A stretch of DNA of 29,192 nt from Caryophanales bacterium UBA3631 (GTDB lineage Bacteria > Bacillota_I > Bacilli_A > RF39 > UBA660): NCBI GenBank assembly GCA_002374055.1, contig DFLA01000047.1, positions 193 through 29,384 on the forward strand, read 5' to 3'. Each line of letters begins with the position of its first letter. The stretch's first letter is position 1. The translations under genes were made by a program, and so were the position numbers. Below are positions 2,296 to 29,192 of this stretch, piece after piece. The notes beneath the pieces were generated by a model, which did not search any database, was not told the origin of the DNA, and saw only the letters and a program-made list of their open reading frames with translations.

Positions 2296-3636
2296 ATGAA
2301 AAATAAAAAAGGATTTACATTAATTGAATTATTGGCAATAATAGTAATACTTGCAATAATAGCAGTAATAACAGTGCCAATTATATTAGATATAATTGAA
2401 AATTCAAAAAAAGGCGCTATTGAAGATTCTGCATATGGATATAAAGAATCAATAGAAAAATATTATACATCAGAGTTGTTTGATAACAATGATATAAAAT
2501 TAGAAGACGATTATATAATAGAGAATGGAATGATGACTGGAAAAAACATGAACAGCGTAGAAATACCAATAAATGGGACAAAACCTACAAGAGGAATATT
2601 AACATACGAGAATAATAAATTAAAAAGAGGATGTTTACAAATTGATGAATACGCAGTAACATTTGAAGAAAACAGAGTTACAAAAGTTGAAAAAGGTGAA
2701 TGTGAAATAACAACTGATCTTTTTGAAGAAACATTTGAATATACAGGAACAGAAGCAGAATATACAATACCAAAAACAGGTTATTATAAGATAGAAGTAT
2801 GGGGTGCTCAAGGAGGAAATGGCGGTGATAATGTCGATTCTGGCGGATACGGTGGTTATTCAACAGCCATAGTACAACTAACTGCCAATACAAAAATTTA
2901 CGTTAATGTTGGTGGCAAAGGTCAAACTAATGCAGGCGGCTATAACGGCGGTGGTGCCGGTACAAGAATTGCTGGAAAAATTTCAAATGCAGGTGGCGGC
3001 GGAGGCGGCGCTACCCATATAGGAACAAAATCAGGATTACTTTCTTCATTTGATAGTAATGAAAATGGAATTGCAGATCCAAATGAACTAACTGATTTAT
3101 TAATTGTAGCTGGTGGCGGCGGAGGCGGCACAGAAACAGGCAATAGAAGAGGTGGTTCAGGTGGTGGAATGAATGGAAATGCTGGCGAGGGAGCATATTA
3201 CGCTGCCGGAGGCGGTACTCAATCTACTGGTGGAACTGCTGGAGATACTGATTCATTTGCAGGTAGTTTTGGTTTGGGTGGAGCAGCTGCTGATGGAAGC
3301 GCAGCAAGTGGTACATACGGAGTTGGAGGCGGCGGAGGCGGCTTCTATGGAGGCGGTGGCTCTAGTCACAAATCAAACGGCGGAGAATTATCAGCATCAA
3401 GTGGAGCTGGAGGATCAGGATATATAGGAAATAATTCACTTATAAATGGTATTATGTATTGCTACAATTGCACCGAATCAACTGACAGTTCAACAAAAAC
3501 CGTTTCTACAACAGGTGAGAATACTCTAATAGATAGCGTTAATTGTAGTAATGGATTTAGTGACGAACCAATTAGTAAATGCGCTAAAGCAGAAAATGGA
3601 TATGCAATAGTAAAATATCTAGGAACAAGGATTTAA
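2296..3636 (+). CDS. Type IV-pilin-like protein with ALK/LTK-like glycine-rich domain
   Basis: A 446-residue predicted surface protein. Residues 1-30 are a class IVa prepilin leader: cleavage after G6 (KKG/FTLIELL), Glu at mature position 5, then a long hydrophobic helix. Residues ~30-136 form a small module ending in two Cys (113, 136), also present in the product of 6456-7352. From ~143 on comes a glycine-rich region opening with FEYTGTEAEYTIPKTG and a WGAQGG motif, ending in SGYIG, a Cys-rich stretch and NGYAIVKYLG. This is the layout of the bacterial relatives of the ALK/LTK glycine-rich domain. It probably sits at a pilus or pseudopilus tip as a display or adhesion unit. No class IVa assembly gene or prepilin peptidase is in the window. 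The glycine-rich part is far GC-richer than its surroundings. Confidence 0.8.
   Translation: MKNKKGFTLIELLAIIVILAIIAVITVPIILDIIENSKKGAIEDSAYGYKESIEKYYTSELFDNNDIKLEDDYIIENGMMTGKNMNSVEIPINGTKPTRGILTYENNKLKRGCLQIDEYAVTFEENRVTKVEKGECEITTDLFEETFEYTGTEAEYTIPKTGYYKIEVWGAQGGNGGDNVDSGGYGGYSTAIVQLTANTKIYVNVGGKGQTNAGGYNGGGAGTRIAGKISNAGGGGGGATHIGTKSGLLSSFDSNENGIADPNELTDLLIVAGGGGGGTETGNRRGGSGGGMNGNAGEGAYYAAGGGTQSTGGTAGDTDSFAGSFGLGGAAADGSAASGTYGVGGGGGGFYGGGGSSHKSNGGELSASSGAGGSGYIGNNSLINGIMYCYNCTESTDSSTKTVSTTGENTLIDSVNCSNGFSDEPISKCAKAENGYAIVKYLGTRI
2992..3342 (+). repeat. Three 18-bp glycine-codon repeats
   Basis: The same 18-base GGT/GGC/GGA string occurs at 2992-3009 and 3112-3129, and a one-base variant at 3325-3342. 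Each encodes six Gly in a row in the pilin-like protein. Lengths are multiples of three, so recombination or slippage between copies would keep the frame. Confidence 0.75.
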
Positions 3637-6455: not shown

Positions 6456-7352
6456 ATGATGAAAAAAAAGAATGGTTTTACATTAATTGAATTACTTGCT
6501 ATAATCGTAATACTAGCAATAATAGCAGTAATAACAGTTCCAATCATTTTGAATATTATTGAGAACTCTAGAAAAGGCGCAGCATCTGATTCAGCATACG
6601 GCTATAAAGACGCAGTAAACAAATGGTATGTATCAAAACTACAAGACGATAATAACTATAGATTAAATGGAAATTATAATGTATCAGATGGAAAACTAGA
6701 CAATATAGATATCCCTGTATCAGGTGATAAACCAACAAATGGAACACTAACATATTCAAATAATGTATTAACTGGAGGATGCCTAACAATAGGAGAATAC
6801 AAAGTAACATTCGATTCAAAAGGAAATGTATCAAAAACAGAAAAAGGAGAATGTGACAGTGCACCAGGAAATACAATATTGTATTACACATATGATGAAA
6901 ACGGAACAGAAAGTAGAAATGGTAAAATAACACAAAAGCTTTCTCAACCAGACCCTAACTGGGTACTTTACATTCAAGAAACATCAGAACAAGCAACTGC
7001 AGAAGGTGATATGTACACGTTAACAGACGGTGACTTTGAAACTGAATTTGTTTATACTCAACAAAAATGTAATGAATTAATATATGATTCTGATACTCAA
7101 TCATGCGTAAAAAAATACAGTTCAGGAGACACATACAAAAAAATAATAAGTAACAAAATATGCTTTGATAACCATTGCTATGGACCTGGAGATACACTTC
7201 CAACAGATAATATTACAATTTTTGATGACCTAGTAACTGATTATGGAGTATGGCCAATAGATTATTATATCGTTGGAATCGGGATAAATGACATGAAATG
7301 TGATATATATCAAGATTATGATGCCACTTGCGTATATTGGAATGGAAAATAA
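6456..7352 (+). CDS. Type IV-pilin-like protein with unrecognised C-terminal domain
   Basis: 298 residues. The N-terminus is a class IVa prepilin leader (NG/FTLIELL, Glu at +5) nearly identical to that of the 2296 gene. Residues ~35-133 repeat the shared module: SAYGYK, IPVSGDKPTNGTLTY, then C109 and C133 in GGCLTIGEY and KGECD, a probable disulfide. After ~140 the two proteins diverge completely. Here the tail has several Cys, Trp and Tyr, no glycine-rich repeat, and ends in ATCVYWNGK; I do not recognise it. TAGGAGG precedes two adjacent ATGs (6456, 6459), and the second has the better spacing. No clear promoter lies between the preceding terminator and this gene, so read-through may supply it. 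Own terminator downstream. Confidence 0.78.
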   Translation: MMKKKNGFTLIELLAIIVILAIIAVITVPIILNIIENSRKGAASDSAYGYKDAVNKWYVSKLQDDNNYRLNGNYNVSDGKLDNIDIPVSGDKPTNGTLTYSNNVLTGGCLTIGEYKVTFDSKGNVSKTEKGECDSAPGNTILYYTYDENGTESRNGKITQKLSQPDPNWVLYIQETSEQATAEGDMYTLTDGDFETEFVYTQQKCNELIYDSDTQSCVKKYSSGDTYKKIISNKICFDNHCYGPGDTLPTDNITIFDDLVTDYGVWPIDYYIVGIGINDMKCDIYQDYDATCVYWNGK

Positions 7353-20242: not shown

Positions 20243-22727
20243 AAAATATTACATACTATCATTTATAATACCATGTATAATGATGATACTATTATACATA
20301 AGCGTAGGAGTAATAGGAGGAAACAAAAGCATACTAACAGTTGATCTTGCAGACCAATATGTAGCATTCTTTAATTCATTAAAAAACATACTAAATGGAA
20401 CAATAAATCCAATATACTCATTCAGTAAAACATTAGGAGGAAATCTATTTGGAATAATAACATATTACTTAATGAGTCCACTTAATTTAATAATAGTTTT
20501 TTTCAATAGAATAGATATACCAAATGCAATACTAATAATTAACATACTTAAAATAGCACTATGCGGTTTGACAAGCTACATATACTTTTCAAAAACAAAC
20601 AAAGACAATAAAACAAACCTAGCATTCTCAATAATATACTCAATGATGTCATATAATATAGTATATAGTCAAAACATAATGTGGCTAGATGGAGTAATAT
20701 TACTGCCAATAATATTTTTAGGAATAGAAAGATTAATAGAAAAAAAACCAACATTGTTCTACATATCCCTTACAACATCAATAATATGTAACTACTACAT
20801 AGGATATATGTCATGCATAGGCTCATTAATATATTTTATATATAAAGACTACTTAAAAGAAAACAAAATAGTAATAAAAAATATATTAAACTTTATAAAA
20901 TATATAATACTATCAGTTTTAACAAGTAGTATAATACTAATACCATCAATAATATCACTTCTATCAGGTAAAGCAAATGGAATACTAAAAGAATTTATAC
21001 CAAATCAAAAATTTGCACTATTTGATTTGATAACAAGATTTTATATTGGAACATTTAAAAACAAAGATTTAGAAGGTGGCTGTCCAAATATATATATATC
21101 ACTAATAGCCATAGTATTAGTAATTTACTACTTCTACAATAAAAAAGTCAGTACAAAAGAAAAAAAAGCCTCGCTAATACTTCTATCAGTATTCATAATA
21201 AGCTTCATATTTAACCCAATAGATGTAATATGGCATACATTTAAACACCCATATGGATTTCCATTCAGATACTCATTTATATTTGACTTCATACTACTTT
21301 TATTAGCACAAAAAAGCCTAAAAGAATTAAATGAAATAGACAAAAAATTCATAAAAAGATTTATAATGTATGCATTTTTCCTAACACTTATAGTAGACAA
21401 AGTATTATATACAACAACAATGTACTATAAAGCACTCGCGACATTCATATTATTACTAATTTACTTATTCTATTTAACAAAAAACAAAACAATAAAACCA
21501 GCAATAATAATATTAATAATAATAGAACTATTTATAAATAACTTTATAACACTATCAAATATAAAATACCAAGACAAAACACAATATGAAAACATAATAC
21601 AAAAAGAAGGAACAATAATAGATAAACTTAATAAAAAAGAAAACTTCTACAGACTAGAAAAAGACTACTCATATTCAACAAACGATGAGCTATTACTTAA
21701 TTACAACGGAATATCACACTTCAGTTCAGTATATGAACAAAAAAACAATGAATTATTAGGAAAATATCTTGGAATATTTAATAGATTCTATATAACTAAT
21801 TATAAAGGCTCAACACCAGTCACAAACTCACTATTTAACATAAAATATCTATTATCAAAAGAACAAAATCAATACTACAATAAAATAGATACATATAAAG
21901 ACATTAATATATACGAAAATAACTATAATCTTCCAATTGGATTTATGGTAAACGAAAAACTAAAAGATTTAAAGCTAGAAGAATACAACCCATTCGAAAA
22001 CCAAAACAAAATACTAAAAACAATGAATAGCAACATAGAAAACGTATTCATAAAAGAAAACTTTAAAATAAAACTCAATAATCTAAAAAAAGAAACAACA
22101 AAAGAAGAATTAATATATAATAAAATAAATAAAAATGAAAGCGCATCCATTGTATTTGAAATAAACAAAGAAAATACAGGAATATTATATGCATATCTTT
22201 CATCAAAAACGAATAAAAAAATAAACATAAAACTAAATGGAAAAAGCATAACAGATCAAACAAATCAAAACGACTATTATTATAATATATTAGAGTTAAA
22301 AGTAACAGAATTTGAGCCAATAACACTAGAAGTAGAACTATTAGAAGATACACTAAAAATAGGAGACTACATGTTCTACACACTAGATCTAAATAAATTT
22401 AATAACGCAATTAATATATTGAAACAAAACGATAAACTAGAAATAATAAATTATGATAAAAATCAAATACAAGCACAAATAAATGTAACAGAAAATAATA
22501 AAATACTATACACATCAATACCTTATGATAAATCAATAAGAATAGAAGTAGATGGAAATAAAATAGAACCATTAAAAACATTTGATACATTAATTTCACT
22601 AAAACTAGATAAAGGAATTCATACAATAAAAATTAAATATGAATTACCAGGTATAAAAATAGGTATTATATTAAGTATAATAGGAATTGTAACATTTATA
22701 ATAAAAAGAAAAATTGATAGAAAATAA
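20232..22727 (+). CDS. YfhO-family membrane protein (GT-C-like)
   Basis: 831 residues with about 13 membrane helices and a large extracytoplasmic C-terminal part (roughly 450-790) before a last helix and basic tail. The N-terminal loop has TVDLADQYVAFF with D38 and D41, then the FSKTLGGN and MSPLNL motifs of PF09586. The Bacillus and Listeria relatives take part in glycosylating lipoteichoic or wall polymers outside the membrane from lipid-linked sugars. AAGGTG lies inside the end of the previous gene. The pair of GT-C-like proteins suggests a decoration module; a lipid-sugar charging enzyme (CsbB/GtcA type) is not in the window. Confidence 0.85.
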   Translation: MKNKKYYILSFIIPCIMMILLYISVGVIGGNKSILTVDLADQYVAFFNSLKNILNGTINPIYSFSKTLGGNLFGIITYYLMSPLNLIIVFFNRIDIPNAILIINILKIALCGLTSYIYFSKTNKDNKTNLAFSIIYSMMSYNIVYSQNIMWLDGVILLPIIFLGIERLIEKKPTLFYISLTTSIICNYYIGYMSCIGSLIYFIYKDYLKENKIVIKNILNFIKYIILSVLTSSIILIPSIISLLSGKANGILKEFIPNQKFALFDLITRFYIGTFKNKDLEGGCPNIYISLIAIVLVIYYFYNKKVSTKEKKASLILLSVFIISFIFNPIDVIWHTFKHPYGFPFRYSFIFDFILLLLAQKSLKELNEIDKKFIKRFIMYAFFLTLIVDKVLYTTTMYYKALATFILLLIYLFYLTKNKTIKPAIIILIIIELFINNFITLSNIKYQDKTQYENIIQKEGTIIDKLNKKENFYRLEKDYSYSTNDELLLNYNGISHFSSVYEQKNNELLGKYLGIFNRFYITNYKGSTPVTNSLFNIKYLLSKEQNQYYNKIDTYKDINIYENNYNLPIGFMVNEKLKDLKLEEYNPFENQNKILKTMNSNIENVFIKENFKIKLNNLKKETTKEELIYNKINKNESASIVFEINKENTGILYAYLSSKTNKKINIKLNGKSITDQTNQNDYYYNILELKVTEFEPITLEVELLEDTLKIGDYMFYTLDLNKFNNAINILKQNDKLEIINYDKNQIQAQINVTENNKILYTSIPYDKSIRIEVDGNKIEPLKTFDTLISLKLDKGIHTIKIKYELPGIKIGIILSIIGIVTFIIKRKIDRK

Positions 22728-22742
22728 ACTATCAATTTTTTT
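22709..22742. terminator. Bidirectional terminator between convergent genes
   Basis: A 12-bp perfect stem (22709-22720 with 22729-22740), an eight-base loop, and T tracts on both strands. The + gene's TAA (22725-22727) lies in the loop and the - gene's stop (22732-22734) in the stem. One hairpin thus ends both transcripts with no spare DNA. Confidence 0.85.
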
Positions 22743-23316
22743 CAATGAAACAATCATCAATAATTTCAAAATCATAATTATTTAAAATAGATAAATTATT
22801 AATGCTTATCTTAAAATAATAAATAACATCATTTCCATATTCCTTATTAATAATAGAACAATCCCTCAAAACATTATCAATAACTTTTGTATCCTCATAT
22901 CTAAATCTAATAGAACAAATCTTACCGGGTAACAAATTAACAATATTAGCACAACCTAAAGCATCACAACAACCATTTGAATATGCACGAACAAGTCCAT
23001 TAGCGCCTAATTTAGTGCCACCAAAATATCTAACGATACAACATAAAATATGATTCAATCCCTTACTTTCTAAAACATTTAAAATAGGCATACCAGCAGT
23101 TCCACCAGGTTCACCATCATCACTAAACCTTTTAACATTATCCAAAATATAAGCATAACATATGTGAGTAGCGTCCTTATACTTCAAACTCAATTGATCT
23201 AAATGATTCTTAATATCATCACTACAATCAACCCTGAATAAAAAAGTAATAAACTTAGACTTCTTAATAATAACCTCATTTAAAACATCATCTTTTATTG
23301 ATAACAAACTATTCAT
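22732..23316 (-). CDS. yigZ: YigZ/IMPACT family protein (UPF0029)
   Basis: 194 residues. The IMPACT N-terminal domain motifs are plain: KSKFI near residue 20, THICYAY near 50, FSDDGEPGGTAG near 64-75, and RYFGGTKLGANGLVRAY near 95-111. A smaller C-terminal alpha/beta domain follows. Eukaryotic IMPACT modulates Gcn2; the bacterial role is unsettled, with a link to translation suspected. The same frame stays open upstream, but the ATG at 23316 fits the family start (MNSLLSIKDD). It lies one base after the stop of the DUF192 gene, so the two are co-transcribed from the divergent promoter. Codons mostly end in T, unlike the + strand genes. Confidence 0.88.
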   Translation of the reverse strand: MNSLLSIKDDVLNEVIIKKSKFITFLFRVDCSDDIKNHLDQLSLKYKDATHICYAYILDNVKRFSDDGEPGGTAGMPILNVLESKGLNHILCCIVRYFGGTKLGANGLVRAYSNGCCDALGCANIVNLLPGKICSIRFRYEDTKVIDNVLRDCSIINKEYGNDVIYYFKISINNLSILNNYDFEIIDDCFIEKN

Positions 23317-23317
23317 A

Positions 23318-23632
23318 TTAATCACAAACCTTAACTTTTTTAATATTAGTCTTAATACTACCGCTAGGTAACTCATAAGTATTATAAACACCTTTTTTAG
23401 GTAAAATAACTCTCCAAGGCTTAACATTTTTAAAAATAAACAAAACATTATCATCCTTATCAGTCATAACAACATCAATATTAGTACTCATAAAAAAAGT
23501 ATGAATGCTATTACACTTGCCAAATCTCATACAATAGTCAAAATTTTTAACAAACATTAAACCTTTAAAACGTTCACTAAAAGAAATACAATCAACTAAA
23601 CTATATTTTTTTTTATCAATTAAAACCTTCAT
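23318..23632 (-). CDS. DUF192 family protein
   Basis: 104 residues, the usual size of a bare DUF192 domain. The family pattern is visible: ERFKGLMF near the N-terminus, HTFFMSTNIDVVMTD in the middle (the common form has MxxTxxPLD), KPWRVILPKKG, then YELPSG near the end. There is no signal peptide, so it should be cytoplasmic. The function is unknown. The frame is open upstream to 23761, but GGTGA followed by ATG at 23632 gives a proper ribosome site, and the longer reading would overlap the flp promoter and gene. Its stop is followed after one base by the yigZ ATG. Confidence 0.8.
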   Translation of the reverse strand: MKVLIDKKKYSLVDCISFSERFKGLMFVKNFDYCMRFGKCNSIHTFFMSTNIDVVMTDKDDNVLFIFKNVKPWRVILPKKGVYNTYELPSGSIKTNIKKVKVCD

Positions 23633-23647
23633 AAAATCACCAAACAT

Positions 23648-23676
23648 AATATAACACAAAAAACAACAATTGACAA
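23648..23676 (-). promoter_or_regulatory. Probable - strand promoter for DUF192-yigZ
   Basis: On the - strand TTGTCA (23676-23671), 17 bp, then TATATT (23653-23648). Its -35 overlaps the -35 of the divergent flp promoter. Confidence 0.5.
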
Positions 23677-23698
23677 ACAAAAATAAATCTTGTATACT
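23670..23698 (+). promoter_or_regulatory. Promoter of the flp pilin gene
   Basis: TTGACA (23670-23675), a 17-bp spacer and TATACT (23693-23698): a strong sigma-A-type promoter, suited to a major pilin. GAGGG precedes the ATG at 23734. Confidence 0.8.
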
Positions 23699-23733
23699 AA
23701 TTATAAACAATACTTCAAGAATAGAGGGATAAT

Positions 23734-23925
23734 ATGAAACTAAATAACAAAGGACAAGCACTAGTAGAATACTTATTAATAATTGCAGTAATAAGTGTTA
23801 TTGCAGTCAGTGTCGTAAAATTATTAGGTGGTTATCTACAAGACTCTATAACAAAGTCATCCTGTAATTTAGTTGACAAAGTATATGTAGAAGGAGATAA
23901 ACCAGGACAAGGTACATGCCAATAA
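23734..23925 (+). CDS. flp: Flp/Tad-type pilin subunit
   Basis: 63 residues, the typical size of class IVb Flp pilins. The short leader MKLNNKG is followed by QALVEYLLI: processing after G7 leaves Glu at +5 and Tyr at +6, the Flp signature. A ~22-residue hydrophobic helix follows, then a short polar tail with two Cys, one in SSCNLVDK and one next to the C-terminus. It should form the pilus shaft. It has its own strong promoter and is followed directly by a terminator, so it can be made in excess over the assembly proteins. The peptidase needed to process it is not in the window. Confidence 0.92.
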   Translation: MKLNNKGQALVEYLLIIAVISVIAVSVVKLLGGYLQDSITKSSCNLVDKVYVEGDKPGQGTCQ

Positions 23926-23947
23926 TCCGTAAAAGGATTATTTTTTT
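23921..23947 (+). terminator. Terminator after flp
   Basis: Stem AATAATCC/GGATTATT around the loop GTAAAA (core 23923-23928 with 23935-23940), then seven T. The stem begins inside the stop codon and the T tract enters the next promoter's -35. Confidence 0.85.
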
Positions 23948-23974
23948 GACATTCTAAAGACATTTTGATATAAT
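23946..23974 (+). promoter_or_regulatory. Promoter for the tad assembly genes
   Basis: Perfect TTGACA (23946-23951), 17 bp and TATAAT (23969-23974). The first two bases of the -35 are the last two T of the flp terminator. Confidence 0.85.
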
Positions 23975-24000
23975 TTAATAGATGATAGGATAGTGATAAT

Positions 24001-24330
24001 ATGAAGAATAAAGGACAGGCTTTAATAGAATTTATTATTATATTACCAGTTATCCTAATTATATTATTATATATAGTAGAATTTGGAACAATAACACTAA
24101 AAAAGTACGAACTAGAATCAAATATAGAATTAATAACAGAACTATATCAAGATGGAAATCAAGAGAAACTAAACGAATACTTAAATAAAAATAATATAAA
24201 CCTTACATACGAAAAAAACGATCAACTAACAACACTAATAATAACAAAAAACATAAAAACTAATACACCATTAATAAATAAAATTCTAGGTAACCAAATA
24301 AAAACGAAAAGGACAATATATGAAAAATAA
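24001..24330 (+). CDS. TadE-like minor pilin
   Basis: 109 residues. The leader MKNKG is followed by QALIEFIIILP: a Flp/TadE processing site with Glu at +5 and Phe at +6, then a ~22-residue hydrophobic helix. The remaining ~75 residues are a polar extracytoplasmic domain rich in Asn and Lys, without Cys. TadE-type pseudopilins are processed by the same peptidase as Flp and are needed for pilus assembly or sit in the fibre as minor parts. It is the first gene after the 23946 promoter and overlaps the next by 11 bp. Confidence 0.82.
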   Translation: MKNKGQALIEFIIILPVILIILLYIVEFGTITLKKYELESNIELITELYQDGNQEKLNEYLNKNNINLTYEKNDQLTTLIITKNIKTNTPLINKILGNQIKTKRTIYEK

Positions 24331-24670
24331 TGGTCAAGTACTAGTATTATTTGTTATACTACTACCAGTTATACTATTAACACTAATTATTACAATAGAA
24401 ATAGGAAATCTATACCTAGAAAAACAAAAAAATCAAAACACAATAAAAAATATAATTAGAGAAAATCTAAAAGAACCAAATAGCGAAAAAATTAATACAT
24501 TAATAGAAAAAAATATAAAAAATATAGACCAAAAAAATATATTCGTTAGTGATGATGAAATAAGAATATACATAAAACAAAATAGAACAATATTTGGAAA
24601 AGAAATAACAATAGAATATAAATATAAAGGAATAAAACAAGACGAGAATATAAATATAAGCGAGGGATAA
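24320..24670 (+). CDS. TadG/TadE-like pilus protein
   Basis: 116 residues. MKNNG/QVLVLFVILLPVILL is a TadE/TadG-like N-terminus, but the Glu at +5 of true pilins is Leu here, which is more like TadG-type proteins. One hydrophobic helix (to ~28) and a polar domain follow. Real TadG proteins are usually much longer, so this is a short form; it has no Cys or visible metal-binding motif. It probably partners the preceding TadE-like protein, to which it is coupled by an 11-bp overlap. The next gene (TadZ) begins two bases after its stop. Confidence 0.72.
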   Translation: MKNNGQVLVLFVILLPVILLTLIITIEIGNLYLEKQKNQNTIKNIIRENLKEPNSEKINTLIEKNIKNIDQKNIFVSDDEIRIYIKQNRTIFGKEITIEYKYKGIKQDENINISEG

Positions 24671-24672
24671 AT

Positions 24673-25428
24673 ATGTCAATACCAAAAGCAAAAATAATAA
24701 CAATTGCATCAGTAAAAGGCGGTACAGGAAAAACAACAACAGCACTTAATCTAGCAGGAACATATAGCCTAATGAAAAAAAAGACACTAATACTAGACTT
24801 TGATTTATATAGTGGAGGAATTGCACTATCACTAAACGTGGATATTACATCAGATCTATATAAATTAGCATACGATATGAGCGTTAATGAATATAAAAAT
24901 ATAAACGACTATATATTAAACTATAACGACTATATAGATATAATACCAGCACCAAAAGATCCAAGATATGCAAGCAAAATAGAAAAAAAATACATAAATA
25001 CAATCCTAAAAAAAGTAATAAATAAATATGAAATCATAATAATAGATACAAACCATTTCCTAGATGCAACAAACCTAATACTATTCGATAAAAGCGATAT
25101 AATTATGTACATTATAAATAACAACCCATTAGATATAAAAAATCTAAAATCGATGATTTCAATACACAAAGATATGGAAAAAGAAAACTATTGTGTAGTA
25201 CTAAACGAGTCGAATACAAAACTAAACGAAATATTCAGCAATTATGACATAAAAAATATAATAAAAAACAATATAGACTATATAATACCAAGAACATTCT
25301 ATAACAAAAACATAAATAAATATGTAATAAAAGGAAAAATAATGATTCTAGATAAAAATGTAAGATTACTAAATAAAAAAACAATTAAAGTATTTAACAA
25401 AATAGCAACCGACTTATTAGAAAGGTGA
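24673..25428 (+). CDS. tadZ: TadZ/CpaE-like ParA/MinD-family ATPase
   Basis: 251 residues. It has a deviant Walker A KGGTGKTT (15-22), the ParA/MinD form with signature K15, then LILDFDLYSGG for the switch region. IIIIDTNHFLD occupies the Walker B place, and NES/PRT fit the later adenine-binding part. In Tad systems TadZ/CpaE marks the site of pilus assembly at the membrane or pole and recruits the TadA ATPase. The receiver-like N-terminal domain of many TadZ/CpaE proteins is missing, as in other short Gram-positive versions. It sits directly before tadA, and no plasmid or partition genes are present, so chromosome partitioning is unlikely. Confidence 0.85.
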   Translation: MSIPKAKIITIASVKGGTGKTTTALNLAGTYSLMKKKTLILDFDLYSGGIALSLNVDITSDLYKLAYDMSVNEYKNINDYILNYNDYIDIIPAPKDPRYASKIEKKYINTILKKVINKYEIIIIDTNHFLDATNLILFDKSDIIMYIINNNPLDIKNLKSMISIHKDMEKENYCVVLNESNTKLNEIFSNYDIKNIIKNNIDYIIPRTFYNKNINKYVIKGKIMILDKNVRLLNKKTIKVFNKIATDLLER

Positions 25429-25432
25429 TAAT

Positions 25433-26755
25433 ATGGCTAAAAAAAAGTTCACAGAAGAATTTGGAGTAGACTTAGAACCAGAAGTAGAAGAACTAACAGA
25501 TTATGAGACATTTCCAAATAAAATACTATTAGACGAACTAAGAAACAAAATAATACAAAACCTAATAGATAATGACATCGGAGAATTTCAAAACATGAAC
25601 GATTTCATAAAGCACGAAATAGGAAAAACAATAGAAGGATACGATTTAACAAACGTTGAAATTAGTTACATACACAACTTAATAGATAATGAAATAAACG
25701 GATACGGACCAATAACAGAACTATTAAGTGACAAAAATATAACAGAAATAATGGTCAATGGAACAAACGAAATCTATGTAGAAATAGATGGAAAAGTCAT
25801 AAGAGATAACAGCGTCTCATTTATAAACGATGCACACATATTAAGAACAATCGCAAGAATAATACAACCATTAGGAAGAACAATAGATATATCAAATCCA
25901 ATGGTAGACGCAAGACTAGAAGACGGTTCAAGACTAAATGCCATAATTCCACCATTATCACTAAAAGGTCCAGTTCTAACAATAAGAAAATTTAAAGAAG
26001 AACTAGCAACCATAGACGACTTTCTAAGGACTGGAACACTAACACCATACATGGCAAGATTTTTGGAAGCCAGTATAAAAGCAAAACTAAACATAATAAT
26101 ATGTGGAGGAACAGGATCAGGAAAAACAACACTTCTAAACGTATTATCATCATTTATACCAAATGATGAAAGAATAATAACAATAGAAGATGCTGCAGAA
26201 CTAAAACTAAAACAAAACCATGTTATCTCGCTAGAAACAAAACTTACAAACTACGAAGGAACAGGAGAAATAACAATAAGAGATCTAGTAAGAAACTCAC
26301 TACGTATGAGACCGGATAGAATAATAGTTGGAGAAGTAAGAGGAAAAGAATCATTCGACATGTTACAAGCAATGAACACAGGACACAATGGATCATTAAC
26401 AACAATGCATGCAAATAGTCCAATAGATGCACTAAATAGACTAGAAACAATGATTTTGATGGCCGGAATGGAAATACCTATAAATGCTATAAGAGAATAT
26501 ATAGAAAATGCTATAGATATAGTAATACAAACGTCCAGACTATCAGATGGAAGAAGAAAAATAACAAGCATAAGTGAAGTAGTAGGATTCGAAGAAGACA
26601 ATATAAAACTAAAAGAAATCTTTGGATTTAAACAAAACGGATTAACAGAAAAAGGAGAAGTAATCGGAGAATTCATAAAACACGATTACAGCCCAGAAGT
26701 ATATAAAAAATTAAAATCAAGAGGAATAGATAATTTAAAAGATATATTTGAGTAA
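25433..26755 (+). CDS. tadA: TadA/CpaF secretion ATPase
   Basis: 440 residues, a hexameric type II/IV secretion ATPase that powers pilus extension (and, in some Tad systems, retraction). The N-terminal helical part leads to MVDARLEDGSRLNAIIPPLS. Walker A is GGTGSGKTT (225-233). The Asp box lies around TIEDAAEL, and Walker B is RPDRIIVGEVRG with E301. The His box is GSLTTMHANSP, and TSRLSDGRRK comes near the C-terminus. All catalytic elements are intact. GAAAGGTGA lies just before the ATG and overlaps the end of tadZ. It is followed after 11 bp by the TadB-like gene. Confidence 0.94.
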   Translation: MAKKKFTEEFGVDLEPEVEELTDYETFPNKILLDELRNKIIQNLIDNDIGEFQNMNDFIKHEIGKTIEGYDLTNVEISYIHNLIDNEINGYGPITELLSDKNITEIMVNGTNEIYVEIDGKVIRDNSVSFINDAHILRTIARIIQPLGRTIDISNPMVDARLEDGSRLNAIIPPLSLKGPVLTIRKFKEELATIDDFLRTGTLTPYMARFLEASIKAKLNIIICGGTGSGKTTLLNVLSSFIPNDERIITIEDAAELKLKQNHVISLETKLTNYEGTGEITIRDLVRNSLRMRPDRIIVGEVRGKESFDMLQAMNTGHNGSLTTMHANSPIDALNRLETMILMAGMEIPINAIREYIENAIDIVIQTSRLSDGRRKITSISEVVGFEEDNIKLKEIFGFKQNGLTEKGEVIGEFIKHDYSPEVYKKLKSRGIDNLKDIFE

Positions 26756-26766
26756 GGAGGGATAAC

Positions 26767-28269
26767 ATGGATTACATTGGATTTAACATAACAGAACAAA
26801 CTATACCAACAAAAGAAGATATAAATATAACATTTAATCCAGACCCAAATTACTCATCATACAAAATTACAATATTAAAAGACAATGAAATATATAAAGA
26901 AATAACAAAAATAAATACAATTCCAACAGAATTTACACTATCAGAAACAGGAAACTACAAAATTAATACAAGCTATTATGATACATACATGAATGAAACA
27001 CAAATAGAAGGTGGTACATATATAATAGATAAAGAACCACCAATAATAAAAGTAAATAAAAATAACTACGAAATACATCTAGGGAAAAAAATCAATATAA
27101 TGGAAAACGTAATAGCAACAGATAATATAGATAAAAATGTTACTGCAAACATAAAAACAAATCAAAATGAATTAGACTTTAATACTAGAGGAACAAAAAA
27201 ATTAATATACAAAGTATCAGATAGAGCAGGTAACATTGCAGAAAAAGAAATATTAATAACTGTAACACCAAAACTAACAAGTATTTATATATTTCAAATA
27301 ATATTCATGATAATACTCGCAATTATTTCATTAGGAATATACATATATAATAAAAGTATAAAACTAGAAAAAAGAATCAGTAGATTTAGCATAAGTCCAT
27401 TAAAAGACGAAACACAATCACTATTTGATAGTATAATTGAAAAATTAGGAAACGTAATAACAAAACTAGATAAAATACTTTATAAATCAGAATTTTTAAA
27501 AAAATATAGTAAAAAATACACAAAATACATAAGAACAAACAACCAATTAAATAAAACAAGCATGGACTTTATCTCAACAAAAGTACTTTGTTCAATTCTT
27601 TGCATAATAATTGCGGTATTCGCAAAAACAGTAAAATTCAAAATATTTAATCTATACGATATATATATACCACTTATATTTGGATTCTTTCTCCCAGACT
27701 TTCTATACTACTATAAATATAAAATATATAGAAAAAAACTAGAAAACGATTTATTACAAGCAATAATAATAATGAATAATGCATTCAAATCAGGAAGAAG
27801 TATAACACAAGCAATAACTCTAGTATCACAAGAATTAGAAGGGCCAATGGCAGAAGAATTCAAAAAAATGAATTTAGAACTATCATTTGGACTAGGAATG
27901 GATGTAGTATTTAATAGACTATATGAAAGAATAAAAATAGAAGAAATCGCATACCTAACCGCATCACTTACAATACTTAATCAAACAGGTGGAAATATCG
28001 TAGAAGTATTTAAATCAATAGAAAAATCATTATTCAATAAGAAAAAACTAAGACTAGAATTAAAAAGCTTAACAAGTGGATCAAGAATGATAGTAAATAT
28101 ATTAATGATAGTACCAATCGCATTTATACTACTAATTTGGATAATAAACCCAATGTATTTTGAACCACTAATAACAACAAAATTAGGATTTATACTTGAT
28201 TGTGTTGTATTCACATATTATATTCTATATATTATAGTAATAAGAAAACTATTGAGGGTGAAAATATGA
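26767..28269 (+). CDS. tadB: TadB-like platform protein with N-terminal Ig-like ectodomain
   Basis: 500 residues against ~300 for ordinary TadB. Residues 1-~90 look like a beta-sandwich of about seven strands. Residues ~92-169 fit a bacterial Ig-like domain of the Cry22Aa/DUF5011 kind (PPIIKV, ATDNIDKNVTA, DFNTRGTKKLIYKVSDRAGN, ITVTP). Then a membrane helix (~172-195), a basic cytoplasmic stretch, helices at ~270-288 and ~297-317, the T2SSF domain (~325-440), and helices at ~441-462 and ~471-492. Placing T2SSF inside puts the N-terminus outside, yet there is no signal peptide. GGAGGG five bases before the ATG makes the start secure, and no frameshift is seen. Assembly platform for TadA; the ectodomain's role is unknown. 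Confidence 0.88.
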   Translation: MDYIGFNITEQTIPTKEDINITFNPDPNYSSYKITILKDNEIYKEITKINTIPTEFTLSETGNYKINTSYYDTYMNETQIEGGTYIIDKEPPIIKVNKNNYEIHLGKKINIMENVIATDNIDKNVTANIKTNQNELDFNTRGTKKLIYKVSDRAGNIAEKEILITVTPKLTSIYIFQIIFMIILAIISLGIYIYNKSIKLEKRISRFSISPLKDETQSLFDSIIEKLGNVITKLDKILYKSEFLKKYSKKYTKYIRTNNQLNKTSMDFISTKVLCSILCIIIAVFAKTVKFKIFNLYDIYIPLIFGFFLPDFLYYYKYKIYRKKLENDLLQAIIIMNNAFKSGRSITQAITLVSQELEGPMAEEFKKMNLELSFGLGMDVVFNRLYERIKIEEIAYLTASLTILNQTGGNIVEVFKSIEKSLFNKKKLRLELKSLTSGSRMIVNILMIVPIAFILLIWIINPMYFEPLITTKLGFILDCVVFTYYILYIIVIRKLLRVKI

Positions 28270-28964
28270 AAAATAAAAATATAATTACAAAAATATATAG
28301 AGAAAGTGAAGTAAAAAGAGTAAACGAAAAAATAATGATGTTAAATAACTATCCATTAAATGAAATAAAATTCTTAAACATAAGACTAATAACATCATTA
28401 ATAATATTCTTTATAACACTTTTAATATTTAAAACAGGATATATATTATCACCAATAATCGCATTAGTATATTACTATTTATTTGAATATATATTTTTAG
28501 ATACATTCATACAAAACAGAATAAAAAAACTAGATAGAGAAGCATTAACATTTTTTGAAATATTAACACTAACTCTTGAATCAGGAAGAGATCTAGAAAA
28601 AGCACTAGAAATTACAGTATTAAATGTTAATTCAGAACTATCAGAAGAATTTAAAAAAACACTATTTGAAGTTAAATTTGGTAAATCACTATTAGAAGCA
28701 CTTAATGATACAAAAAAAAGAATACCATCAGAAACAATAAATAATATTATTCTAAATATAACTCAAACAAATATATTTGGAAACAAAATAATTGATACAA
28801 TGTATTCTCAAATAGAATTCTTAAGAGATAAACAAGTACTATCAATAAGAGAACAAATAAATAAATTACCAAATAAAATATCAATAATATCAGTATTATT
28901 TATAGTACCAATAATACTATTAATAGTACTAGGACCATTCTTAATATCATTTCTAAATCGATAA
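28266..28964 (+). CDS. tadC: TadC-like platform protein
   Basis: 232 residues. Two membrane helices (~40-75), a cytoplasmic T2SSF domain (~85-195, with LTFFEILTLTLESG and FGKSLLEAL), and a C-terminal membrane helix that runs nearly to the end. With TadB it forms the inner platform on which TadA works. The start is ATG 28266, overlapping the tadB stop (ATGA) and preceded by GAGGGTG. The frame is open further upstream, inside tadB, but that has no ribosome site. It is the last gene of the tad operon and is followed by a terminator. No peptidase (TadV) gene follows. Confidence 0.88.
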   Translation: MKNKNIITKIYRESEVKRVNEKIMMLNNYPLNEIKFLNIRLITSLIIFFITLLIFKTGYILSPIIALVYYYLFEYIFLDTFIQNRIKKLDREALTFFEILTLTLESGRDLEKALEITVLNVNSELSEEFKKTLFEVKFGKSLLEALNDTKKRIPSETINNIILNITQTNIFGNKIIDTMYSQIEFLRDKQVLSIREQINKLPNKISIISVLFIVPIILLIVLGPFLISFLNR

Positions 28965-28987
28965 ATGCAACATCAGTTGCATTTTTT
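28963..28987. terminator. Terminator between tadC and dinD
   Basis: Nine-bp stem (28963-28971 with 28976-28984), loop ATCA and T tract to 28987. On the - strand the T tract is short, and the dinD stop codon overlaps its edge, so it may also serve dinD. Confidence 0.82.
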
Positions 28988-29192
28988 ATGTAATTTCATT
29001 TTTTTCTTTATCCAAATGCTTTAAACTTTTAGATGGAGTAGGCAAATCCTCAGGCATAGTTCCACCTTGCATTTTTATAAAATTTCTAATGTCTTTACCC
29101 ATATTATAATGAGTTTTATTTGCATCAACTTCATTATTAATATTATCATTTTTTAACTTCTGATTAGTTAAAGAAATTCTAAACAAATTAGC
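28986..29192 (-). CDS. dinD: DinD-like DNA-damage-inducible protein, C-terminal part
   Basis: Only the last 68 codons lie in the window, and the frame is open through the right edge (the TTG at 29186 is an internal Leu, not a start). The text ANLFRISLTNQKLKND, ANKTHYNMGKDIRNFI, GGTMPEDLPTPSKS and IKHLDKE-like end closely follow the C-terminus of DinD. E. coli DinD is SOS-induced and reported to inhibit RecA filament activity. The upstream part and any SOS box are outside the window. It is convergent with the tad operon and not obviously linked to it. Confidence 0.82.
   Translation of the reverse strand, partial: ANLFRISLTNQKLKNDNINNEVDANKTHYNMGKDIRNFIKMQGGTMPEDLPTPSKSLKHLDKEKNEIT

Follow-up and report, generated by a model that had tools for sequence, protein, structure and literature searches.

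The T2SSF domain of platform proteins is cytoplasmic, and the platform of the archaellum is related to that of Tad pili. Fusions of TadB to other domains, such as vWA, occur in other phyla. The platform has been modeled as a trimer of TadB-TadC type heterodimers around the pilus axis (PMC12019362, PMC13170226), and in a model of CpaF with CpaG/H the basic CpaG helices alpha3-alpha4 contact the cytoplasmic motor, at lower confidence (PMC12019362). Whether the platform rotates, or stays in place while the motor changes around it, is described as an open question (PMC10191384, PMC11300603). RcpC/CpaB of diderm Tad systems is a separate protein that forms a dodecamer binding the secretin (PMC12307814), and ArlF, which belongs to the ArlF/ArlG stator of the archaellum, docks to the S-layer (PMC13319060). 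With regard to export, one review states that long exoplasmic N-tails require a signal peptide, a statement made for single-spanning proteins (PMC13261788), and another that long translocated segments require SecY and a preceding hydrophobic domain (PMC7616256).

Here we describe a TadB with an Ig ectodomain, i.e., a known platform protein in an altered form, encoded in a window of 29,192 nucleotides (the whole stretch of DNA that was analyzed). Like canonical TadB/CpaG, this protein has one T2SSF domain, the same layout of transmembrane helices (TM) and a position between tadA and tadC, but about 170 residues precede its TM1, whereas Ig-less forms have no ectodomain and a tail of 0-13 residues. 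It is predicted to resemble RcpC/CpaB in being membrane-anchored, envelope-facing and near the pilus exit; however, PF16976 (RcpC/CpaB) gives no match in the window TadB at E<=0.1. As in the archaellum stator, Ig-fold domains lie beside the platform, but ArlF and ArlG are separate pilin-derived proteins with C-terminal Ig domains, whereas the window TadB has an Ig-Ig-TM arrangement fused to T2SSF, with Ig N-terminal to the TM. The ectodomain profile matches 7js4 over positions 14-172 (2.6e-16), a likeness to the surface Ig-like repeats (PF16403, HYR, Big_3; e.g., ZmpB). Such repeats sit in secreted proteins, whereas in the window TadB they precede a polytopic platform protein without a signal.

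The tad locus and its TadB

Features of the tad locus are listed in Table 1. As the initial annotation stated, tadB is intact and embedded in the operon; intact relatives in many genomes rule out a pseudogene or a misassembly. Pfam matches the single T2SSF domain at residues 336-457 (E 9.8e-14, 51.8 bits against a cut-off of 25.2). Neither a CpaB nor a secretin gene was found among the tad genes of the window, and no RNA family reached its gathering score within 22700-29192.

Table 1. Coordinates of the tad genes in the window and of the parts of TadB.
Feature	Position	Strand	Remarks
flp, major pilin, 63 aa	23734..23925	+	class III leader ...NNKGQALVEYLL; named by reading
tadE-like minor pilin	24001..24330	+	PF07811, 27.7 bits
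Second TadE/TadG-like minor pilin (tadE2)	24320..24670	+	PF07811/PF13400, below cut-off
tadZ/cpaE-like ParA-family ATPase	24673..25428	+	
tadA, motor ATPase	25433..26755	+	T2SSE 2.5e-61; TIGR03819 1.9e-95, below its curated cut-off
In-frame TGA stop, six codons 5' of the TadB start	26749..26751	+	read from the sequence
Ribosome-binding site AAGGAGGG	26754..26761	+	overlaps the TadA stop, 5 nt 5' of the ATG; read from the sequence
tadB, Tad platform protein, 500 aa	26767..28269	+	intact, between tadA and tadC
Ectodomain D1, aa 1-88	26767..27030	+	Ig/Fn3-like beta-sandwich
Ectodomain D2, aa 89-168	27031..27270	+	bacterial Ig-like (HYR / PF16403 / Big_3 type)
TM1, aa 171-196	27277..27354	+	predicted N-out; counterpart of the N-terminal helix of Ig-less TadB
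Basic loop 1, aa 197-263	27355..27555	+	predicted cytoplasmic; net positive in 78/78
TM2 and TM3, aa 264-317	27556..27717	+	
T2SSF platform domain, aa 318-440	27718..28086	+	cytoplasmic from family knowledge
TM4, TM5, basic C-terminus, stop	28087..28269	+	
tadC, second platform protein	28266..28964	+	without ectodomain; T2SSF 5.8e-14

The order flp-tadE-tadE2-tadZ-tadA-tadB-tadC is common to loci with and without the Ig extension (hereafter Ig and Ig-less). It is complete in 42 of 96 Ig loci, some of which are one genome counted twice, and in 20 of 38 Ig-less loci; in the incomplete ones, genes are missing through contig or locus ends or weak hits, or the flp and tadE hits are swapped. The median TadB frame is 506 in Ig and 338 in Ig-less loci, whereas the other operon genes differ little. 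Four T2SSF matches were found in 34 of 36 Ig genomes (TadB, TadC and two in one two-domain protein, presumably ComGB), and two in each of G024 and G032.

At the end of flp (23921-23947) we read a hairpin, AATAATCC-GTAAAA-GGATTATT, followed by a run of T. It looks like an intrinsic terminator, which would shift the balance toward Flp and away from the machinery encoded downstream. The window Flp and that of an Ig-less relative (locus L116) share a C-terminal ...SC...EGDKPG...TC... motif, whose two cysteines possibly form a disulfide in a very short pilin. Elsewhere in the window, positions 2296-3636 and 6456-7352 encode two N_methyl pilin-like proteins, the former with an ALK/LTK-type glycine-rich domain (PF12810, 3.4e-32), an unusual pilin head.

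The TadB start and the absence of a signal peptide

The initial annotation held that a strong ribosome site fixes the start of TadB and that the protein has no signal peptide, and both statements were confirmed. The start codon is the ATG at 26767, with the ribosome-binding site 5 nt before it, and because an in-frame TGA sits upstream of that site, a signal peptide encoded upstream is excluded. Relatives were examined in the best 80 of 199 loci encoding one, a choice that favors extended forms. In these loci the open frame starts at most 28 codons ahead of the first match to the window protein, apart from L056 with 74; the frames of L044 and L015 start at a contig end and that of L055 is interrupted after 44 codons. 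In-frame stops near the start, in the window and in the relatives, rule out a missed or upstream start.

With start codons in the relatives picked by script, the most hydrophobic 19-residue stretch of the first 120 residues reaches at most 1.27 in 79 loci and the window, compared with 2.03-3.44 for TM1. When the whole open frames of the 80 loci are considered, no hydrophobic stretch precedes TM1 for any choice of start, the top 19-residue window again being 1.27. An internal start giving an Ig-less product was rejected, since no ribosome site could be read before TM1 in the window. The Ig-TadB of L056 has an extra acidic N-terminal extension of about 55 residues, which likewise contains no hydrophobic stretch.

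Fold and conservation of the ectodomain

Structure prediction gives the N-terminal ~170 residues as two beta-sandwiches (pLDDT 92.8). This confident model and the Ig matches agree with the original description of two beta-sandwich domains, the second of them Ig-like. HYR matches the window TadB at residues 88-165, above the Pfam cut-off, and PF16403 (DUF5011) scores 22.3-26.1 bits on it, against a curated cut-off of 27; the same family matches 50 of 54 ectodomains at E<=0.01. Support for the Ig fold concerns D2, which is matched, whereas D1 is matched only near background. When the full-length model was submitted to Foldseek, the rows were taken up by Ig domains and the VIA list added T2SSF.

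Mean pairwise identity is 36-39% in the ectodomain and 72% in T2SSF, and this lower conservation fits a stalk better than a specific binding site. A wall-binding motif was not identified. The length of the ectodomain is held, the first residue of TM1 falling between 165 and 181 in 73 of 80 rows (best 80 of 199 relatives).

Distribution and origin of Ig-TadB

The Ig extension is present in 79 of the best 80 of 199 relatives, and the remaining gene is interrupted. We used the TadB core (residues 174-500) as a query against 193 genomes from the order of genome G005, which we take to be GTDB order RF39, and obtained matches in 97 genomes and none in 96. By length, 25 of the matching frames have 495-520 aa and 71 have 323-350 aa; the last is a 167-aa fragment. 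By reading, all 25 long frames carry the Ig extension, and the 71 Ig-less ones begin at TM1. Thus, the claim that normal TadB lacks such an extension holds for 71 of the 97 matching genomes, and 38 Ig-less orthologues have a tail of 0-13 residues. The class sample gave matches in 24 of 296 genomes, with 2 long and 13 short frames among the 15 closest orthologues, and in the phylum sample of 195 genomes a full-length match occurs in G005 only; the samples were taken from larger groups, and many of the genomes are drafts. The hosts are uncultured Bacilli, some filed as Mycoplasmatota/Tenericutes, and several come from animal guts, judging by isolate names.

In a core tree of 101 rows (97 different; 63 Ig and 38 Ig-less), every Ig form falls to the same side of a single branch, supported at 100/99. 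The tree is midpoint-rooted; some of its branches are long, among them L183-L186, and 31 of its forks are open, none of which touches the question asked. It needs one change between Ig and Ig-less, a number reached in 0 of 500 shuffles, and no Ig-less row lies inside the clade of 63 Ig rows. Nearest to this clade are six Ig-less rows, joined at only 81/89, and five of their six N-termini (MNVFIIQTIIMIILAF... and similar) align with TM1 of the Ig forms. The window TadB core can be aligned along its whole length with Ig-less orthologues, at an identity of 34-51% to most and 25-29% to six of them. These data suggest that the Ig extension was gained once if the Ig-less form is ancestral, as is suggested by the Ig-less rows occupying the other side of the branch. 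Ranking by identity had interspersed eight Ig forms with Ig-less ones, which raised the suspicion of several independent gains, but the core tree overruled it.

Two of the 120 homologues listed, P0071 and P0078 (277 aa), start inside loop 1 and have neither the ectodomain nor TM1. Both are very close to the window (P0071, 89% identical, comes from a contig of at most 16.7 kb and P0078 from one of 1.1 kb), and they may be truly truncated, broken or mis-called genes. A further homologue, P0080, is broken behind the third helix. The open-licence PMC literature searched yielded no account of an Ig-domain TadB, where a mention inside a paper is possible; the combination of PF16403 and PF00482 is already in databases as automatic annotation.

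The same Ig domain in other proteins of these genomes

The ectodomain profile was searched against 16 genomes, 11 with Ig-TadB and 5 with Ig-less TadB, and matched in 15, including four of the five with Ig-less TadB. From a larger number of matches 30 loci were retrieved: 11 were tadB itself and 19 encode other proteins, two of which (L227 and L234) run past the end of the locus. The 17 uncut proteins all have a hydrophobic anchor or pilin leader ahead of their first Ig domain. Enzymes among them are VanY carboxypeptidases, polysaccharide deacetylases and a GDSL hydrolase, and N_methyl pilin-like proteins also occur; G005 has a VanY and a GDSL protein with the same Ig domain. Ig-TadB is the exception among the Ig-domain proteins retrieved, having no export signal ahead of the Ig domains.

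At L215 (1689-2813 and 11269-12483) this Ig-like domain joins a membrane anchor to a VanY, polysaccharide deacetylase or GDSL hydrolase domain, and this linkage recurs at L229, L230, L236, L237, L238, and L242. Type IV pilin-like proteins with an N_methyl leader carry Ig-like repeats in their heads at L231, L232, L240, L244, and L245, the longest reaching at least 879 aa before its locus ends.

Predicted membrane topology

Among 78 aligned proteins the net charge is negative for the N-tail in 74, and positive for loop 1 in all, for T2SSF in 75 and for the C-terminus in 76. In 78 of 80 rows lysine and arginine are commoner on the C-terminal side of TM1 than on the N-terminal side (the other 2 rows are ties), as they are in 38 of 38 Ig-less orthologues, whose N-tails have 0-13 residues. 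The short TM2-TM3 loop runs counter to a simple topology, being slightly positive in 43 of 78. Since T2SSF is cytoplasmic and three helices lie ahead of it, the N-tail would be outside. The Ig domains had originally been placed on the outer face of the membrane, and we infer the same from the charges, the helix parity with T2SSF and the use of the domain elsewhere. We take loop 1 to correspond to the basic CpaG helices alpha3-alpha4.

TM1 would act as a reverse signal anchor that puts the ~170-residue N-tail outside the membrane. Such a location is surprising, because the two reviews demand a signal peptide or a preceding hydrophobic segment (PMC13261788, PMC7616256). Throughout the clade, ~170 Ig-fold residues appear to cross with TM1 as their sole signal, and either the export rule has a large natural exception or the topology given here is wrong.

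Possible function of the ectodomain

We propose that, in a single clade of uncultured Bacilli, TadB once acquired two Ig-like domains by fusion directly before TM1. With a platform built as a trimer of TadB-TadC dimers, three stalks of two Ig domains each, whose length we estimate at perhaps 7-8 nm, would surround the pilus exit in the space between membrane and wall. Acting as a collar or anchor, they would center the machine on the wall and hold the platform while TadA drives pilins through. A collar or anchor around the pilus base in the inner wall zone is the reading we prefer, unproven as it is and with a likelihood approaching an even chance, because wall-facing proteins of these genomes use this type of domain as a spacer and because archaella meet a similar task with the Ig-fold proteins ArlF/ArlG (PMC13319060). 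The initial annotation had suggested docking to peptidoglycan or guiding of the fiber through the wall, either of which may apply. Loss of the cell wall by the hosts was ruled out, as each of the 40 genomes examined, 20 Ig and 20 Ig-less, encodes peptidoglycan transpeptidases of the penicillin-binding type. A point against a collar is that Ig-less sister lineages have the same operon and wall, so that Tad pili in general need none.

Two alternatives concern the side of the membrane and the missing envelope parts. If TM1 ran from in to out, the Ig domains would be cytoplasmic and might act on the TadA motor; this would explain the absent signal peptide and agree with the reviews, which predict that so long an N-tail is not exported (PMC13261788, PMC7616256). 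We give it little credence, since the uniformly positive loop 1 would end up outside, TM2 or TM3 would have to be non-spanning, and an export signal precedes the Ig domain in all other uncut proteins; moreover, the basic CpaG helices, the presumed equivalent of loop 1, meet a cytoplasmic motor in the published model (PMC12019362). The initial annotation further suggested that the domains replace missing CpaB and secretin parts. Its premise stood, the tad genes of the window including neither, and RcpC is described as a periplasmic conduit in Pseudomonas (PMC12307814), but the conclusion did not follow, as Ig-less relatives equally lack CpaB at their tad loci. PF16976, which may overlook weak relatives, matches in 25 of 36 Ig genomes (11 above cut-off) and in 16 of 30 Ig-less genomes (4 above cut-off), and in every one of these 25 and 16 the match is on a contig other than that of tadB, the contigs being fragments. 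The Ig-less tad locus L116, read gene by gene, has neither CpaB nor Ig. The Ig domains therefore do not mark systems newly deprived of CpaB, and a functional stand-in for CpaB/RcpC and secretin is highly improbable.

The main rival to a collar or anchor is that the Ig domains bind the Flp fiber or the TadE minor pilins as a feeding chaperone or gate at the platform mouth. The ectodomain would sit at the pilus exit, and platform-pilin interactions have been reported for type 4 filaments (PMC10191384). In a distance-correlation test on 26 loci with 200 permutations, a weak test, D1 showed a slight excess with the tadE2 product (partial r 0.16, reached in 5 of 200 permutations), but neither D1 nor D2 did so with Flp, nor D2 with either TadE, and no partner for the ectodomain emerged. 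The median frames of tadE and tadE2 also hardly shift between Ig and Ig-less loci (121/123 and 129/127; flp 114/104), and we regard pilin binding as unlikely, if worth keeping in view. Still less probable in our judgment is a generic spacer from domain shuffling, with little specific role and kept since its loss slightly harms folding or insertion. That extracytoplasmic proteins of these genomes often carry the Ig type, that the ectodomain evolves fast, that Ig-less relatives manage without it and that P0071 and P0078 may be truncated forms all agree with a spacer. However, a useless tail that is hard to export should have been lost, whereas the Ig clade contains zero Ig-less rows and has held the length of the ectodomain.

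Were the collar or anchor reading correct in its strongest form, the Ig domains would fasten the platform to the wall and thereby prevent the rotation that the spindle model requires, and a folded N-tail would be exported by TM1 alone; we consider this doubtful. An outward stalk that possibly grips the wall nevertheless makes the question of platform rotation directly testable, with the Ig-less sister lineages as natural controls, and Ig-TadB is a natural case in which to study how the cell wall holds pilus machines. Should the N-tail lie outside, the family would be a large, natural, single-origin exception to the view of long N-tail export in the two reviews (PMC13261788, PMC7616256), and a tool for finding how long N-tails cross the bacterial membrane.

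Loop 1 and a second locus with CpaB-like proteins

The strongest excess in the distance test links Flp to loop 1 and not to the ectodomain: loop 1 distances follow those of Flp more closely than the other operon genes account for (partial r 0.39, a value reached in 0 of 200 permutations, 26 loci).

CpaB adjoins a TadA/VirB11-like ATPase in five short and three longer loci, the longer ones adding T4SS-like genes. In relatives, at L091, L092, and L094 (also L081-L084 and L087), this second locus encodes a CpaB-like protein, the TadA/VirB11-like ATPase and several pilin-like proteins. No T2SSF match was spare for this locus in the genomes searched. It also contains two membrane proteins of ~263 and 300 aa and T4SS-like genes (PrgI-/VirB6-like, by reading), and appears to combine Tad with type IV secretion.
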